From Bacteroidia bacterium (lineage in GTDB: Bacteria > Bacteroidota > Bacteroidia > J057), in NCBI GenBank assembly GCA_019695295.1, contig JAIBAH010000004.1, positions 1-64,000 on the forward strand: 64,000 bases of DNA. The letters are read 5' to 3'. The notes under the pieces were generated by a model. That model was not told the origin of the DNA. It did not search any database and was given only the letters and a program-made list of their open reading frames with translations. This document shows positions 37,737 through 46,319 of the stretch, one piece after another. The number at the start of each line of letters is the position of its first letter. Within the stretch, counting starts at the first letter, position 1. A program made the position numbers and the translations under genes.

Positions 37737-39056
37737 TTAATCCCCAACCGGTTCCTTCCTCAACGCCTCTCTCAATACCTGTTGCAGTAATGTTGAATTT
37801 TGTAATTCACTTTGTTTGATACTTGCTTCCAACTCATTGCAATACTGCATCAGTTCCTCTAATTTTTGAACGATACGGTTTTGTTCGGATAATGGGGGAA
37901 GGGGAATAATAAATTGTTCAAGATTATATTTAGGCAAACCTTCCCGCCCTGCACCTGTAGTTGAGGAAAAAATAAACCTTTGAAAAAATGGTGACAAAGC
38001 AATAGAATGATAGAAGTTGTTGTCTACCAAAAGCGGTCTTATAATACAAACGTGCTGACTAACATTTCCTTCTTCAAAACCCTCTGGAACCAAAGCACAT
38101 CTCCCCATTGACCCACCAGTAATATTCAGTAAAATATCTTTTGCAAATACTGTTGTACTATTCATTAGCTTATGCATTTCATCGGATATAAATTTTATAT
38201 CATCATAAACCAACCCGCTGTCATAAATATTTTGAGAACGAAAAAACGGTTTCCCATTAGAGGAATAATTGCTTCCCTTTGGGGTGCTACCAGAGCCGAT
38301 TTTTGTACAAATCTCCCCCAACCTACACCACACCCAATTCTCCGGAATATCAAAAGGAATTTCTTCTGGCTTGATGGGGGGCAGTTCCTTTTCCTTTTTG
38401 AGTTTCTTTTCAGCAATCAGTTTTTCTTTTTCGGCTTTTATCTTTTTAAGCAATTCGCTTGCAGGCTCGTCTTTTGGGTTTTGCTCCACCAATTTCCCTT
38501 GCACCGCATCTTGCAATAATTGCTGACGGAGTTTTTTTACTAGAGTGAGTTGATGGGTGAGTTCGGTGGAGATTGCGCTTCCGTTTTTCTCCAATAACCG
38601 AATGTTTTCAATTAGTTGTCCTTGAGTTTTAATGTCAGGTAATAATAATTCCAGTTCAAATAATTGAGTTGTATTTATTCTTTGTGTAGCAACACCCGAA
38701 GCTATCTTAGCAAGTTCTAAATAAAAATTACCTTGCTTAAAAAAATAGAAAATAAACTCAGGCAAACATGATTCGTCAACATCAAATGCCGGTAAATCTG
38801 AACTGCTTTCAAAGCCATCTAACTCAGGTGGGACAATTCCGAATGCACCTTTATGAAAATTTTGTTTGCCATAAATAAACTGTCCTGCCCTTCTCACATA
38901 TTGTTTCGTTGCTCCTTCTACTTCATTTTCGAATCCTCTTTTTTCAACTCCGAGGACTTTTAATCTTACAGTTATTCTGCGGTCGGGATTTGGATTCTCT
39001 GAAATGATTTTACTTTCGGTAAGAATATTGCCTAATTTCACTTTTTTCCAAGCCAT
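37737..39056 (-). CDS. hsdS: Type I restriction-modification specificity subunit
   Basis: This 439-aa protein has two target-recognition domains, about 1-200 and 240-425, each starting with a W-K/R-x-LG type motif (MAWKKVKLGNIL and NWVWCRLGEICTKIGSGSTP). A charged helical spacer (LKKIKAEKEKLIAEKKLKKE) lies between them, and helices also end each half (LTHQLTLVKKLRQQLLQ; NRIVQKLEELMQYCNELEA). Two such domains recognise the two halves of a split DNA site. It is separated from hsdM by about 1.15 kb holding a RAYT gene and repeats, where these genes normally touch. A TTG-started variant is not needed. Confidence 0.93.
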   Translation of the reverse strand: MAWKKVKLGNILTESKIISENPNPDRRITVRLKVLGVEKRGFENEVEGATKQYVRRAGQFIYGKQNFHKGAFGIVPPELDGFESSSDLPAFDVDESCLPEFIFYFFKQGNFYLELAKIASGVATQRINTTQLFELELLLPDIKTQGQLIENIRLLEKNGSAISTELTHQLTLVKKLRQQLLQDAVQGKLVEQNPKDEPASELLKKIKAEKEKLIAEKKLKKEKELPPIKPEEIPFDIPENWVWCRLGEICTKIGSGSTPKGSNYSSNGKPFFRSQNIYDSGLVYDDIKFISDEMHKLMNSTTVFAKDILLNITGGSMGRCALVPEGFEEGNVSQHVCIIRPLLVDNNFYHSIALSPFFQRFIFSSTTGAGREGLPKYNLEQFIIPLPPLSEQNRIVQKLEELMQYCNELEASIKQSELQNSTLLQQVLREALRKEPVGD

Positions 39057-39069
39057 ATTTTATAGGTTT

Positions 39070-39085
39070 TTCGGCTTTAGCCGAA
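39070..39085 (+). repeat. REP-like palindrome 1 near hsdS
   Basis: TTCGGCTTTAGCCGAA is a seven-base perfect stem with a two-base loop, preceded by AGGTTTT. The same core and 5' AGGT flank recur at 39127 and 40052. It lies 14 bases upstream of the hsdS start on the other side of transcription. Confidence 0.8.
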
Positions 39086-39125
39086 GGTTTAAATAATATA
39101 AATTGAGTATGAATTTTAAAAGGTG

Positions 39126-39365
39126 CTTCGGCTTTAGCCGAAATGTACTCTTCATCTGAAACTGAAACTCCTTCTTCATCTGAAACTGAAACTCCTTCTT
39201 CATCTGAAGCTGAAACTCCTTCTTCATCTTTAGCCGAAATGTACTCTTCATCTGAAGCTGAAACTCCTTCTTCGGCTGAAGCTGAAATCCCTTCTTCGGC
39301 TGAAGCTGAAACTCCTTCTTCGGCTGAAGCTGAAACTCCTTCTTCGGCTGAAGCCGAAGCGCCTA
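39126..39365. repeat. Ten-unit 24-bp minisatellite derived from a REP palindrome
   Basis: Ten back-to-back 24-base units start at 39126 and end at 39365. The first is the palindrome TTCGGCTTTAGCCGAA plus ATGTACT. The last is TTCGGCTGAAGCCGAA, again a palindrome but in the opposite flank orientation. Inner units keep CTTC..CTGAAGCTGAAACT and differ at a few positions. Unit five (39222-39245) repeats the first unit's 3' half. The period is a multiple of three, so a minus-strand frame stays open. It reaches the last codon of the RAYT gene. Confidence 0.85.
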
Positions 39366-40037
39366 AATTTGATGCTCCCACTCAGGTTTTAAGTAGGAAA
39401 ACTCCCAATCTCTCGCATTTTCTACCAATCCTGCTTTTACGGGATTTTCTAAAACGTAGCGAATGATATTTTGTAACTCTTTTTTGTTTCTTGTATAATA
39501 ATCAAAACTATCTTTCTGCCAAAAGGCTCCTTTTCTCCCTAAAATCTTATTCGCTTTAAAGGCAGAGCCGCCCTTTATTCGGTGCATAATGTCGTATAAT
39601 TGCATATACTCTTTGTCTTCTTTTTCAAATGCTTCCCATTCGTCTGCTTGTATATGCGTACTTATAACTAAGTGTACATGGTTTGACATAATACAATAAG
39701 CGATTAACTCATAATATTCGTTATCGTATTGATGCATTTTATCTGCAACAATTTGAGCTACTCCGGGATTCTTTAACCAATGATTGCCATATTGTGTATG
39801 GTCTAATTCGGTTTCAAATACTTTGAAGTAGGCCTTTCGTAAAGTTTGTTTCTCCGTAAAAAAAAATTCAGGTTTTTCTTTTTGCAATAGGCTTATTTTT
39901 TTTTCGTATGCGTCTTTTAATAGACTAACCACTACTTTTGGTAATGAGTCTATCAATCGGAACGTTACAAAAAAAGTAGCCCCAATAGGTTGTATATGTG
40001 GGAGTTGTGTATAATAGTTTGTTTTTATTTCTTTCAT
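39363..40037 (-). CDS. RAYT (REP-associated tyrosine transposase, IS200-like)
   Basis: This 224-aa protein has the single-domain HUH layout. It opens with QPIGATFFVTFRL, carries the HUH pair in IMSNHVHLV near residue 118, and the catalytic tyrosine is probably in DSFDYYTRNKKEL. The end motif YVLENPVKAGLV is typical of the RAYT family. It nicks and joins single-stranded DNA at REP palindromes. It lies between hsdM and hsdS on the same strand. Palindromes of one family stand on both sides (39070, 39127, 39343, 40052, 40093), which is the signature of a RAYT with its own REPs. Confidence 0.9.
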   Translation of the reverse strand: MKEIKTNYYTQLPHIQPIGATFFVTFRLIDSLPKVVVSLLKDAYEKKISLLQKEKPEFFFTEKQTLRKAYFKVFETELDHTQYGNHWLKNPGVAQIVADKMHQYDNEYYELIAYCIMSNHVHLVISTHIQADEWEAFEKEDKEYMQLYDIMHRIKGGSAFKANKILGRKGAFWQKDSFDYYTRNKKELQNIIRYVLENPVKAGLVENARDWEFSYLKPEWEHQI

Positions 40038-40050
40038 AATCTTACAGGTT

Positions 40051-40108
40051 TTTCGACTTTAGCCGAAAATTAATTAATCACTATTAACCTCTTTCGGCTA
40101 AGGCCGAA
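40051..40108. repeat. REP-like palindromes 4 and 5 upstream of the RAYT gene
   Basis: TTCGACTTTAGCCGAA (40052-40067; one mismatch, 5' flank AGGTTTT) and TTCGGCTAAGGCCGAA (40093-40108, followed by GCACCT) form an inverted pair. The second read on the minus strand has the same AGGTGC 5' flank as the palindrome at 39127. They make a BIME-like pair. Confidence 0.75.
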
Positions 40109-40204
40109 GCACCTCAATCGGTAATCTGCTAAGCAATGAGTAGTAAATTACTGTACTGAGATGAGAGGAATATAAAGATATCTTGAATATAGTTTTGCGT
40201 CATT

Positions 40205-41641
40205 TTACTTTACAGCTTCTTTTAATTGTTGTAATAATTCATTGCTTTTGGCAAAACTACTCGCCAGCATTTCCATCAGTTCCGCACTGCTATACTCCCT
40301 CTCTTCTTCCTTTTTAGTCGGATTCTTAATATCCAAATCATACCCCCGTTCCATAATCGTTTTAATATTTACTTTCCAGCAGATTTCACTTTCCGTGCGG
40401 TTGTTCCACCATTGTTTTATGGGCTCAAATTCTTTCAGCTGAATCGGTCTTGTTTTATTGTAAGCCTTATATCCTTCGGGCATTCGGTGTTCATAATACC
40501 AAATATCTTTGGTGGGTTTACCTTTGTCGAAAAACAATAAGTTGGTAGCCACCGTTGCATAAGGCTGAAAAACAGAATTAGGCAAACGAATAATAGTGTG
40601 AAGGTTGCAATCTTCCAGTAACTTTTGACGAATCCGTTGCTTTACGCCATCCCCTGTTAAACTGCCATCAGGCAATACAATTCCTGCCCGTCCGTCTTGC
40701 TTCAGCAAATGAATCATCAAAATCAAAAACAAGTCGGCACTTTCCTTTGTCCGGTAGGTTTGCGGAAAATTGGTTTCGTTATTGTTGGCTACAATTCCCC
40801 CAAATGGCGGATTCGCCAGTATTACATTTACCCGGTGCTTTTCGGTGTAATTACTCAAGGGTTGGTCTAAAGCATCCCCAAATTGGATATTCGGGATTTC
40901 AATATCGTGTAAAATCAAATTCGTAGTGGCCAGTAAGTAAGGCAAAGGCTTGTACTCCCAGCCTGCAATATTTTCCTCAATACTTTTTCTGTCTTTTACA
41001 TTTTTGGCTTGTTTCTTCAAATGCGCTATGGCACAAGTCAGATATCCCCCCGTTCCGCAAGCAGGGTCAAGCACCTTTTCCCCCAATTGCGGATTAATCA
41101 TTTCAGTAATAAATTGCGTAATGGCTCTGGGAGTATAAAATTCCCCGCTTTTGCCCGCACTTTGCAATTCCTTTAAAATGGTTTCATACAATTCGCCAAA
41201 AGCGTGGCGGTCTTTGGCAATATTAAAATCAATTTCATTCAGCTTGTTCAATACCTTCCGGATATTGATACCACTCTTCATATAATTGTTGTTGCCCTCA
41301 AAAACTTCCCGTACAATTACCGCACGCTGATTGCCTGTGCTTAAATCCAAATTACGAAGTGCAGGAAACAACTCTCTGTCCACAAAATTCAGTAATTCAT
41401 CCCCCGTCATTCCTTCATCATCCCCTGCCCAATTTCCCTTTTCTTTTACCCAGTGAAACTTATCAGGAATGGGAGAGAGGTATTTGTCGTCCAGTACCTC
41501 TAATTCTTTGTCTTTATCCGAAAATATTTTCAAAAAAAGCATCCAGCCCAATTGCTCAATGCGTTGTGCATCGCCATTGAGGCCTGTGTCCTGCCACATG
41601 ATATTTTGAATACTTTTTACTATGCCTCCGATATTGCTCAT
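40205..41641 (-). CDS. hsdM: Type I restriction-modification DNA methyltransferase subunit
   Basis: This 478-aa protein methylates adenine N6 using SAM. Motif I is DPACGTGGYLTCAI and the catalytic motif IV is ANPPFGG. The N-terminal helical domain (NIMWQDTGLNGDAQRIEQLGWMLFLK) and the GVLPDGSL-type segment (AGIVLPDGSLTGDG) fit HsdM. It works with HsdS for methylation and with HsdR for restriction. It starts six bases after the hsdR stop and is followed by the RAYT module instead of hsdS directly. Confidence 0.95.
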   Translation of the reverse strand: MSNIGGIVKSIQNIMWQDTGLNGDAQRIEQLGWMLFLKIFSDKDKELEVLDDKYLSPIPDKFHWVKEKGNWAGDDEGMTGDELLNFVDRELFPALRNLDLSTGNQRAVIVREVFEGNNNYMKSGINIRKVLNKLNEIDFNIAKDRHAFGELYETILKELQSAGKSGEFYTPRAITQFITEMINPQLGEKVLDPACGTGGYLTCAIAHLKKQAKNVKDRKSIEENIAGWEYKPLPYLLATTNLILHDIEIPNIQFGDALDQPLSNYTEKHRVNVILANPPFGGIVANNNETNFPQTYRTKESADLFLILMIHLLKQDGRAGIVLPDGSLTGDGVKQRIRQKLLEDCNLHTIIRLPNSVFQPYATVATNLLFFDKGKPTKDIWYYEHRMPEGYKAYNKTRPIQLKEFEPIKQWWNNRTESEICWKVNIKTIMERGYDLDIKNPTKKEEEREYSSAELMEMLASSFAKSNELLQQLKEAVK

Positions 41642-41647
41642 TCTTTT

Positions 41648-44059
41648 TTATGCTGTTTTATAAAGTTCCATTTCTAATTCTTTTACCGCCTGCAAATATT
41701 TTTCTCTGCTTCCAAACTCGTTGATGATTTCAAGCGGTGAACCAAATTCATCAAACGGATTTACTCTCAATACTTCAATGCTTTCAATGTTAGTGATACC
41801 CTCGTCCGCATATTTGTCCAGCAACGCTTCCAGTACTTTTTTGGCCTGGTCGCCATACTTTGTAAAGTAGTTTCGCTTCTTCACATTGCTCGCTCTTTCC
41901 TGTCTTGTCAATGGCGGCTGGTCAAATGCTACGTGACAAATCAAATCGAACAAATCCACTTCTTTGTTTACTGCATCATACAAGGCTTCTACCATTACAC
42001 CCTGTTCCTGCAATTCGGCAATGATTGCTTCTTTCCGGTCGGTGGTGTTCCATTTGTTTAAAAAGTCATCCAGCGAAGCAAAGTTTTCTTTGATAATTTC
42101 TTTGGTGTGGTCTTTTAAACTTGTAGTGATTGGTTTTCCGTGCTGGTCAAAATACAATTCACGACTAATCAATACCGAAACATCTACACCGTTTACATAC
42201 ACTTTTTCTCTTCTTACATCGGGGTCTCTGGTAACCCAGTTGCCCCCTAAAGAGGAACCATCAGGATAACGAATATTGACTTTTTCAAAAACGATTGCTT
42301 CGCCTGTAGCTTCGTCCAGAACGGTTACCGTATTTTCCTCTTCTTCAATCACCACCAGTGATAAATCTTCGTCCTGCGAAACGGGTTTTACCCGAATAGG
42401 GTCGCCATCAAACGCAGCGTCTGCAAACAAATCTGTTGCGTTTCTGAAATCAAGAATAGTAAAATACATTTTTCCGTACTCTTCATTAATCCGGGTCCCC
42501 CTGCCAATGATTTGTTTGAACTTGGTCATTGAATTGATATTGGCATCCAGCACAATTACTTTACAAGTCTGTGCATCCACACCCGTAGTCATCAATTCGG
42601 AAGTGGTGGCAATAACCGGATATTTTTCTTCAGGATTAATAAAGTTGTCTAATTCGCGTTTGCCCTCGTCATTGTCGCCGGTTATTTGCATTACATACTT
42701 GTAGTTCTCTGCCACCAAATCAGCATTTTGTCTGGCTAAAGCAGTTCGCATCCGTTCAGCGTGGTCAATATCCACACAAAACACAATTGTTTTTGCAAAA
42801 CGGTCATACCCGTGTAAAAATTCAGTGAGCTTTTTAGCAACCAATTCCGTTCGTTCTTCAATCACCAGATTGCGGTCAAAGTCCTTTCGGTTGTATATTC
42901 TGTCTTCAACCAGGTTTCCGTCCTTGTCCGTTTTCCCCTGATCTGGTCTCCAGCCTTCGGCATCCACATTCAAACCAATTCTAACCACACGATAAGGAGC
43001 AAGAAAACCATCATCAATTCCCTGTTTCAACGAATAGGTATAAACAGGGTCGCCAAAATATTCGGTGTTGCTTGTTTCTTTCGTTTCTTTAGGGGTAGCG
43101 GTTAAACCAATATGCGTTGCTTTTTTAAAGTAGGATAAAATTTCTCTCCAGCTACTGTCTTCCTTAGCGCTACCTCTGTGGCACTCATCAATTACAATCA
43201 AGTCAAAAAAGTCGGGAGAAAATTGTTTATAAACATTTGCATCTTCGTCTGAACCCGATAGCCCCTGATACAAAGCCAAATAAATTTCATAGCTTTTATC
43301 AATTTGCCGGTGCTTCACCACCGTCATTTTATCCTTAAAATGCTTGAAGTCGCCTCTTCGTGTTTGGTCAATCAAAGCATTACGGTCGGCCAAAAACAAA
43401 ATCCGTTTTTTGGCCCCGCTTTTCCAAAGTCGGTGAATGATTTGAAAAGCCGTATAGGTTTTCCCTGTACCTGTTGCCATTACCAGAATAATTCGGTTCT
43501 GACCATTCGCAATAGCTTCAACCGTCCTGTTTACTGCAATTTGCTGGTAATATCTCGGCTTGCGGTTCGTACCGTCAAAATAATAATCCTGGGAAGCAAT
43601 CTTTTCAGCAGTCGGCGTTGTAATGCCTTTATATTTTTTGTATTTCTCCCAAAGTTGTTCGGGAGTAGGAAACTCGTCAATACCAATTTCAGTTTCAATA
43701 TCTCCGTCTGTTGCTGTACGGTCGTGAAACAAAAAGCCATCACCGTTACTACTAAAAACACAAGGAATATCCAGTATTTGAGCATAGTCCAAAGCCTGTT
43801 GTATTCCTGCCCTTACGGAATGTCTGTTGTCCTTCGCCTCAATGATTGCAATGGGAATATTGGGCTTATAATACAAAATGTAGTCAGCCCGTTTTCGATT
43901 TCCCCTTGCCGTCAGCTTACCTCTTACATATATTTTTCCGTCCGTGAACGAAACCTCTTCCAATAACTGCGTCTGTCTATTCCAGCCCGATCTTTCAACC
44001 GCAGGAGTAATAAACTTAGTGCAAATATCCCGTTCAGAAAGGCTTTTTTTATCTATCAT
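41648..44059 (-). CDS. hsdR: Type I restriction endonuclease subunit
   Basis: This 803-aa protein has an N-terminal PD-(D/E)XK nuclease part (DYILYYKPNIPIAIIEAKDNRH, with AIIEAK as the E-x-K core). A superfamily 2 helicase motor follows: Walker A MATGTGKTYTAFQ, Walker B DECHRGSAKEDS, motif III GLTATPKET, and motif VI in FKQIIGRGTRINEEYGK. The C-terminal region has the EcoEI R-like C domain that meets the methylase. The length is near the family minimum. It is the first gene of the leftward hsdR-hsdM-[RAYT]-hsdS-GIY-YIG unit. Confidence 0.95.
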   Translation of the reverse strand: MIDKKSLSERDICTKFITPAVERSGWNRQTQLLEEVSFTDGKIYVRGKLTARGNRKRADYILYYKPNIPIAIIEAKDNRHSVRAGIQQALDYAQILDIPCVFSSNGDGFLFHDRTATDGDIETEIGIDEFPTPEQLWEKYKKYKGITTPTAEKIASQDYYFDGTNRKPRYYQQIAVNRTVEAIANGQNRIILVMATGTGKTYTAFQIIHRLWKSGAKKRILFLADRNALIDQTRRGDFKHFKDKMTVVKHRQIDKSYEIYLALYQGLSGSDEDANVYKQFSPDFFDLIVIDECHRGSAKEDSSWREILSYFKKATHIGLTATPKETKETSNTEYFGDPVYTYSLKQGIDDGFLAPYRVVRIGLNVDAEGWRPDQGKTDKDGNLVEDRIYNRKDFDRNLVIEERTELVAKKLTEFLHGYDRFAKTIVFCVDIDHAERMRTALARQNADLVAENYKYVMQITGDNDEGKRELDNFINPEEKYPVIATTSELMTTGVDAQTCKVIVLDANINSMTKFKQIIGRGTRINEEYGKMYFTILDFRNATDLFADAAFDGDPIRVKPVSQDEDLSLVVIEEEENTVTVLDEATGEAIVFEKVNIRYPDGSSLGGNWVTRDPDVRREKVYVNGVDVSVLISRELYFDQHGKPITTSLKDHTKEIIKENFASLDDFLNKWNTTDRKEAIIAELQEQGVMVEALYDAVNKEVDLFDLICHVAFDQPPLTRQERASNVKKRNYFTKYGDQAKKVLEALLDKYADEGITNIESIEVLRVNPFDEFGSPLEIINEFGSREKYLQAVKELEMELYKTA

Positions 44060-45804: not shown

Positions 45805-46319
45805 ATCCCCTCATTCCCCCAAGCCTTCCAAAGGATAACTTACAGGAAATTACAAAAAGAAGCCCTTCTGACCTCTCTCGTTATGCCTTTTTTCTTATTT
45901 GGCACACATTTTTGAACAGTCTCCCATAAACGTTCCGAATCAGACCATAAACGCTCCGAATTAGACCATAGACGCTCCGAATCAGACCATAAACGCTCCG
46001 AATCAGACCATAAACGTTCCGAATCAGACCATAAACGCTCCGAATCAGACCATAAACGTTCCGAATCAGACCATAAACACTTCGAATCAGACCATAAACG
46101 CTCCGAATCAGACCATAAACGCTCCGAATTAAACCATAAACGCTCCGAATCAGACCATAAACGCTCCGAATGAGTACATAAACGCATATATACAAAGGAT
46201 AGTCGTTCACATCTACCCCAAAAACGCATCCCCTCATTCCCCTAAGCCCTCCAAAAGGCAACTTACGGGAAATAATAAAAAGAGGCTCTGACTTCCCTCG
46301 TTATGCCTTATTTCTTATT
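45805..46319. repeat. Flanking direct repeats around the 21-bp minisatellite
   Basis: 45805-45900 and 46228-46319 align over about 92-96 bases in the same direction, both starting ATCCCCTCATTCCCC and ending near GTTATGCCTT.TTTCTTATT, with clear differences between them. They bracket the minisatellite at 45925-46190. Part of the same element recurs at 37171-37203. Confidence 0.75.
45925..46190. repeat. Twelve-unit 21-bp minisatellite
   Basis: Twelve units of 21 bases run from 45925 to 46176, and a partial one follows. The core CATAAACGCTCCGAATCAGA is followed by C. Variation is mostly C/T at position 9. No unit carries spacers, so it is not CRISPR. Because 21 is a multiple of three, two minus-strand frames stay open with repeats like SERLWSD or IRSVYGL; I do not call these genes. 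Twenty-one bases equal two helical turns, so each unit presents the same DNA face. Confidence 0.9.

Follow-up and report, generated by a model that had tools for sequence, protein, structure and literature searches.

The window analysed here, 64,000 nucleotides of a Bacteroidia bacterium contig, carries a type I restriction-modification operon in which hsdR (41648-44059) and hsdM are followed on the minus strand by a RAYT gene, a tandem array, hsdS and the gene of a GIY-YIG-like protein, whose Pfam match lies just under the cut-off (Table 1). The RAYT gene is apparently intact and its product matches the Pfam family Y1_Tnp. Against the NCBIfam model REP_Tyr_transpos it scores 68.5 bits (5.7e-19), below the curated cut-off of 80, and a relative at 51% identity scores 83.5, above it. 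The protein aligns with PDB 4er8, the solved E. coli TnpA_REP, with Y194 opposite Y115, which we take to be the catalytic tyrosine of that enzyme. Among 17 relatives N119-H120-x-H122 is invariant and Y194 is found in 16, and the alignment thus gives both the HUH motif and a candidate for the catalytic tyrosine that define a RAYT/TnpA_REP. A cognate palindrome is present on both sides of the gene in five copies, with E and D upstream and C, B and A downstream, and of these A, D and E lie beyond the two array ends.

Table 1 Coordinates of the features at the RAYT locus (positions within the window)
Feature	Position	Strand	Description
hsdS (Methylase_S)	37737..39056	-	downstream neighbour of RAYT
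REP copy A	39070..39085	+	just upstream of hsdS start codon; foot AGGTTT
Probable RAYT element (REPtron)	39121..40114	-	23-nt inverted ends, 96% complementary (39121-39143 / 40092-40114)
Tandem array	39126..39365	.	ten 24-bp units, each a 16-bp REP palindrome and an 8-bp spacer
REP copy B	39127..39142	+	outward foot AGGTGC at 39121-39126
REP copy C	39343..39358	-	outward foot GGCGC adjoining/overlapping RAYT stop codon; inverted relative to B
RAYT (TnpA_REP) gene	39363..40037	-	224 aa; NHVH (HUH) motif; candidate catalytic Tyr194 aligned with PDB 4er8
REP copy D	40052..40067	+	1 mismatch; upstream of RAYT start; foot AGGTTT
REP copy E	40093..40108	-	1 mismatch; foot AGGTGC; with D forms the 5' REPIN
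hsdM (N6_Mtase)	40205..41641	-	upstream neighbour of RAYT

Inspection of the sequence resolves the array into ten in-phase units of exactly 24 bases, a count taken from a contig of a fragmented assembly, so that the precise number of units could be an artefact of assembly. TRF agrees with a period of 24 (88% matches) and adds a second layer of periodicity, a 96-bp higher-order repeat. Intact TTCGGC-NNNN-GCCGAA palindromes make up units 1 (TTCGGCTTTAGCCGAA) and 10 (TTCGGCTGAAGCCGAA) and units 2-9 are decayed copies, with 7/8 arm pairs kept in the end units and 5-6/8 in the inner ones. Unit 5 (39222-39245) is identical to unit 1 over the 17 bases at its 3' end and differs from it at 2 positions in all, against 8-10 mismatches from every other unit. 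Unit 10 ends in the RAYT stop codon, which occupies its final three positions (39363-39365, minus strand). The original prediction had described just such an array, of ten units of exact length with intact palindromes of opposite orientation at its ends, decayed units between them and the 3' half of unit 1 recurring in one inner unit, and each of these particulars is borne out. REP copies A, D and E and the overlap of unit 10 with the stop codon go beyond that description. Nine matches to the palindrome with up to 2 mismatches were observed in the window where 0.18 were expected. The array consensus matches the REP at 14/16 positions in exactly one phase, a level reached by 2/20,000 shuffles and by none of the 8,944 other 24-mers of the window. 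The phase of the palindrome within the array units is therefore far above chance.

In order to follow the distribution of the palindrome and of the 24-bp unit we carried out the genome search that had been proposed with the prediction. Within this genome of 4.9 Mb exact copies of the palindrome are confined to the RAYT locus and one inverted doublet with a 10-bp loop on contig C119 (22504/22530), and the 24-bp unit, with up to 3 mismatches allowed, to the RAYT locus. Leaving aside the decayed array units this makes seven REP copies in two places, in contrast to the high and dispersed copy number of canonical REPs. The exact palindrome occurs in 9/394 other genomes of the class, with one or two copies each and mostly with other loops, and TTCGGCTTTAGCCGAA has 24 single-copy matches in viral contigs. 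The unit has a single 3-mismatch match in one of 294 related genomes and is thus not a widespread sequence unrelated to the RAYT, which would have counted against the prediction. The plasmid search returned one distant Bernardetia transposase only. The closest RAYTs, L009 (51% identity) and L037 (47%; the one useful relative from the search of genome contigs), are accompanied by the palindrome GGCGACTTTAGTCGCC, which differs from that of the window and has the core CGRCTTTAGYCG in common with it. In more distant relatives the gene mostly has other palindromes in its vicinity, located to one side of it or to both. Such a pattern is what would be expected of REP/RAYT co-evolution.

Two inverted REPs that can fold as one hairpin constitute a REPIN, and this arrangement is seen in E/D, in C/B and in the C119 doublet. 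Copies C and B face each other across the array with the outward feet GGCGC and GGTGC. Single-stranded DNA folding gave a z of -5.3 for the array region, with the outer REPIN stem as its centroid, and of -5.1 for the 5' doublet (E/D), and the 3' element may on the strength of this predicted stem still be recognisable to the RAYT despite its expanded loop. The near-complete complementarity of the 23-nt inverted ends makes the stretch between them a plausible RAYT element (REPtron). Over the seven copies the feet are GTGC (2), GCGC (2), GTTT (2) and GTGG (1, a C119 copy), so that the canonical foot GT[AG]G is missing in 6/7. Copies A (39064-39085 with its foot) and D (40046-40067) have the same unusual foot, AGGTTT, each just upstream of a start codon, that of hsdS and that of the RAYT gene respectively, which raises the possibility that hsdS acquired a copy of the RAYT leader ahead of its start.

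At this locus hsdM and hsdS are about 1.15 kb apart, whereas in all eight other hsdM loci compared (L086-L093, in eight other genomes) hsdS directly adjoins hsdM, its start coinciding with the hsdM stop or lying no more than about 50 bp from it. In one of these, L090, the N-terminal region of hsdS is clearly similar to that of the window. This comparison supports insertion of the RAYT module between hsdM and hsdS as the most likely origin of the arrangement. The locus is an example of a RAYT module that separates hsdM from hsdS, genes that normally adjoin, and the expression of the restriction-modification system could be altered as a result. A tblastn comparison of the hsdR, hsdM and hsdS of the window with the neighbourhoods of related RAYTs gave no matches, and a general association of this RAYT with restriction loci is therefore not established, even though the RAYT of L009 also adjoins an hsdR-type gene. 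The start of that gene is present twice in L009, before and after the RAYT (1-70 and 1250-1320), as if the RAYT region lay between a partial duplicate and the gene itself.

In order to place the array among those of related transposases we surveyed the flanks of 17 related RAYT genes, up to about 10 kb either way, together with the window and L037 (19 loci). We counted TRF arrays that have a palindrome of arm length 6 or more in their unit and took as near whatever lies within 600 bp of the RAYT. Palindromic tandem arrays numbered 7 in 22 kb near RAYTs and 0 in 328 kb far from them (binomial 4e-9, or 7e-8 when the window is left out); some loci had already been looked at when near and far were delimited. 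Tandem arrays of all kinds were likewise enriched, with 11 near and 24 far (p = 7e-6). Part of the palindromic enrichment is built in since REPs cluster near RAYTs anyway, and what it adds is that REPs near RAYTs tend to be tandem. A palindromic array was present within 600 bp in 6/19 loci. Besides that of the window, with its 24-bp units, these were arrays of 52 bp x 2.1 (L094/L009), 37 bp x 2.5 (L095), 78 bp x 3 on both sides of the RAYT (L096), 51 bp x 2.5 upstream of it (L100/L058) and 161 bp x 1.8 (L104). The closest parallel to the window array is a further array downstream of the RAYT in L100/L058, which has an imperfect consensus and falls under the arm threshold. Its 26-bp unit consists of an 18-bp palindrome and an 8-bp spacer, CTCGGACTGAAGTCCGAG followed by GTCCTGTG.

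From these data we consider it likely that a RAYT element with REPINs came to lie between hsdM and hsdS and that the loop of its 3' REPIN expanded into the 24-bp minisatellite by slippage or recombination. This reading builds on four points that the analysis shows: how the repeat is organised, that it derives from the REP, that RAYTs of relatives are associated with cognate palindromes, and that hsdM and hsdS are kept apart here in contrast to other loci. In the proposed course of events an element flanked by inverted REP doublets would have entered between the two genes, most likely by insertion, and the stretch between REPs C and B would then have expanded by tandem duplication of one REP and its 8-bp spacer, probably through replication slippage or unequal recombination at the hairpin-forming sequence. 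A later duplication of four units (96 bp) would have followed, and units 1-4 and 5-8 do resemble one such duplication. The inner palindromes, presumably no longer under selection by the RAYT, would have decayed while the end REPs kept their outward feet and should still be able to form a stem with each other, giving a long REPIN that has the array for a loop. The array itself would have no function of its own, and nicking by the RAYT is conceivable as a stimulus of the duplications.

A more active part for the transposase, which would repeatedly nick and rejoin or re-insert REP units at its own flanking site in place of passive slippage, appears unlikely to us. Palindromic tandem arrays do recur beside related RAYTs and were absent elsewhere in the sampled flanks, and tandem REPIN clusters adjoin each RAYT of P. 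fluorescens SBW25 (PMC3116915), as this explanation would predict. The inner units however show no GGTGC/GCACC foot, the outward foot that insertion of a REP should bring with it, the period is constant at 24 and a duplication of 96 bp is the kind of change that slippage or recombination typically produces. Together these features favour slippage or recombination over repeated RAYT insertion. The original prediction had left both routes open, growth from a REP by slippage or by RAYT copying; its REP origin is upheld by the confinement of unit and palindrome to the locus, and unit-by-unit copying by the RAYT is not supported, in view of the missing inner feet and the apparent four-unit duplication. 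The wider proposition that RAYTs of this Bacteroidota group actively make short-period minisatellites from their own REPs is likewise doubtful; if it were true, array growth would be a record, possibly a by-product, of transposase nicking.

Arrays of related kinds have been described. In SBW25 each of the three RAYTs has tandem REPIN clusters next to it (Bertels and Rainey 2011, PMC3116915), and the BIMEs of E. coli are tandem REPIN-like doublets (PMC3686654). Both resemble the window array in being REP-derived tandem repeats beside a cognate RAYT with an inverted REP doublet as the basic unit, but they repeat a whole REPIN or a long module with intact REPs, whereas here a single REP plus 8 bp is repeated, the inner palindromes are decayed and the array is confined to one REPIN loop. 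In another member of the Bacteroidota, Porphyromonas gingivalis, the BrickBuilt MITE has inverted-repeat ends that enclose an intergenic 23-nt minisatellite whose unit number varies between strains (PMC4596501). BrickBuilt is however multicopy and without a transposase of its own, and its repeat is not reported as derived from the REP of an adjacent RAYT, whereas the 24-bp unit is found at one locus and next to a RAYT. REPtrons and TIRtrons (PMC3733652) and the TnpA_REP subclasses 2.4 and 2.6 in Bacteroidetes (PMC6006769) likewise have an HUH/Y1 transposase gene flanked by inverted palindromes, and differ in having the foot GT[AG]G where the feet here are mostly GTGC, GCGC or GTTT. In subclass 2.4 the gene itself is known to contain short repeats and REP insertions that keep the frame (PMC6006769), whereas the window array follows the RAYT gene.

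The suggestion that no comparable case had been described is weakened by the SBW25 clusters (PMC3116915) and by the similar arrays at five other RAYT loci. As related transposases carry similar arrays, that of the window varies a known theme and does not represent a new kind of system: a minisatellite whose unit is one REP plus a spacer lies here inside a single REPIN, next to its own RAYT. The array connects REP/RAYT elements with the origin of bacterial minisatellites by way of a visible intermediate series with intact ends and a decayed middle, and REP-containing tandem arrays are found at several independent RAYT loci. The significance is modest given that the repeat is of low copy and any array function only putative.

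That the array is functional, its copy number tuning hsdS expression by way of the termination, RNA structure or spacing that it provides between the RAYT gene and hsdS, we regard as very improbable. It does lie in the gap between the two genes, the hairpin of REP A ends shortly before the hsdS start and the predicted single-strand folding is strong, as DNA. The terminator-like sites however belong to the opposite strand, promoter-like matches do not exceed the background, the Bacteroidetes-type promoter pattern has no match, a search of Rfam for an RNA family gave no match and the inner palindromes are decayed. The coding role raised by the description of the array as coding-frame-compatible inside an operon, in which one of its strands would specify a peptide of SASAEEGV or SSAEAETP repeats, we reject as barely credible: one frame per strand is open through all 240 bases, but 24 is divisible by 3 so that a unit without stops gives an array without stops, composition explains the open frames, the array is intergenic with no ORF that has a sensible start of its own, the minus-strand ORF starts inside the RAYT gene and out of its frame, there is no Pfam match and the arrays of relatives include periods, such as 26, 37, 52 and 161, that are not multiples of 3. 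Nor is the coding-frame claim novel, as in-frame REP insertions are known for subclass 2.4 (PMC6006769).

Other tandem arrays were noted in the course of this work. A 24-copy array with a 21-bp period (L008 9006-9508, G000:C119) lies ~500 bp from the genome's only other REP doublet of the family. Within the hsdR-type frame of L009 (1944-2040) an inverted palindrome doublet, CGGCGGATTTATCCGCCG / CGGCGGATAAATCCGCCG, different from the RAYT palindrome, precedes some five copies of GGTACAGCC that stay in frame, giving a REP-like doublet together with a coding minisatellite. The window itself contains a 21-bp array at 45924-46185 (12.5 copies, 91% matches, CCATAAACGCTCCGAATCAGA), which is overlapped by two minus-strand ORFs of about 126-129 aa that overlap each other.
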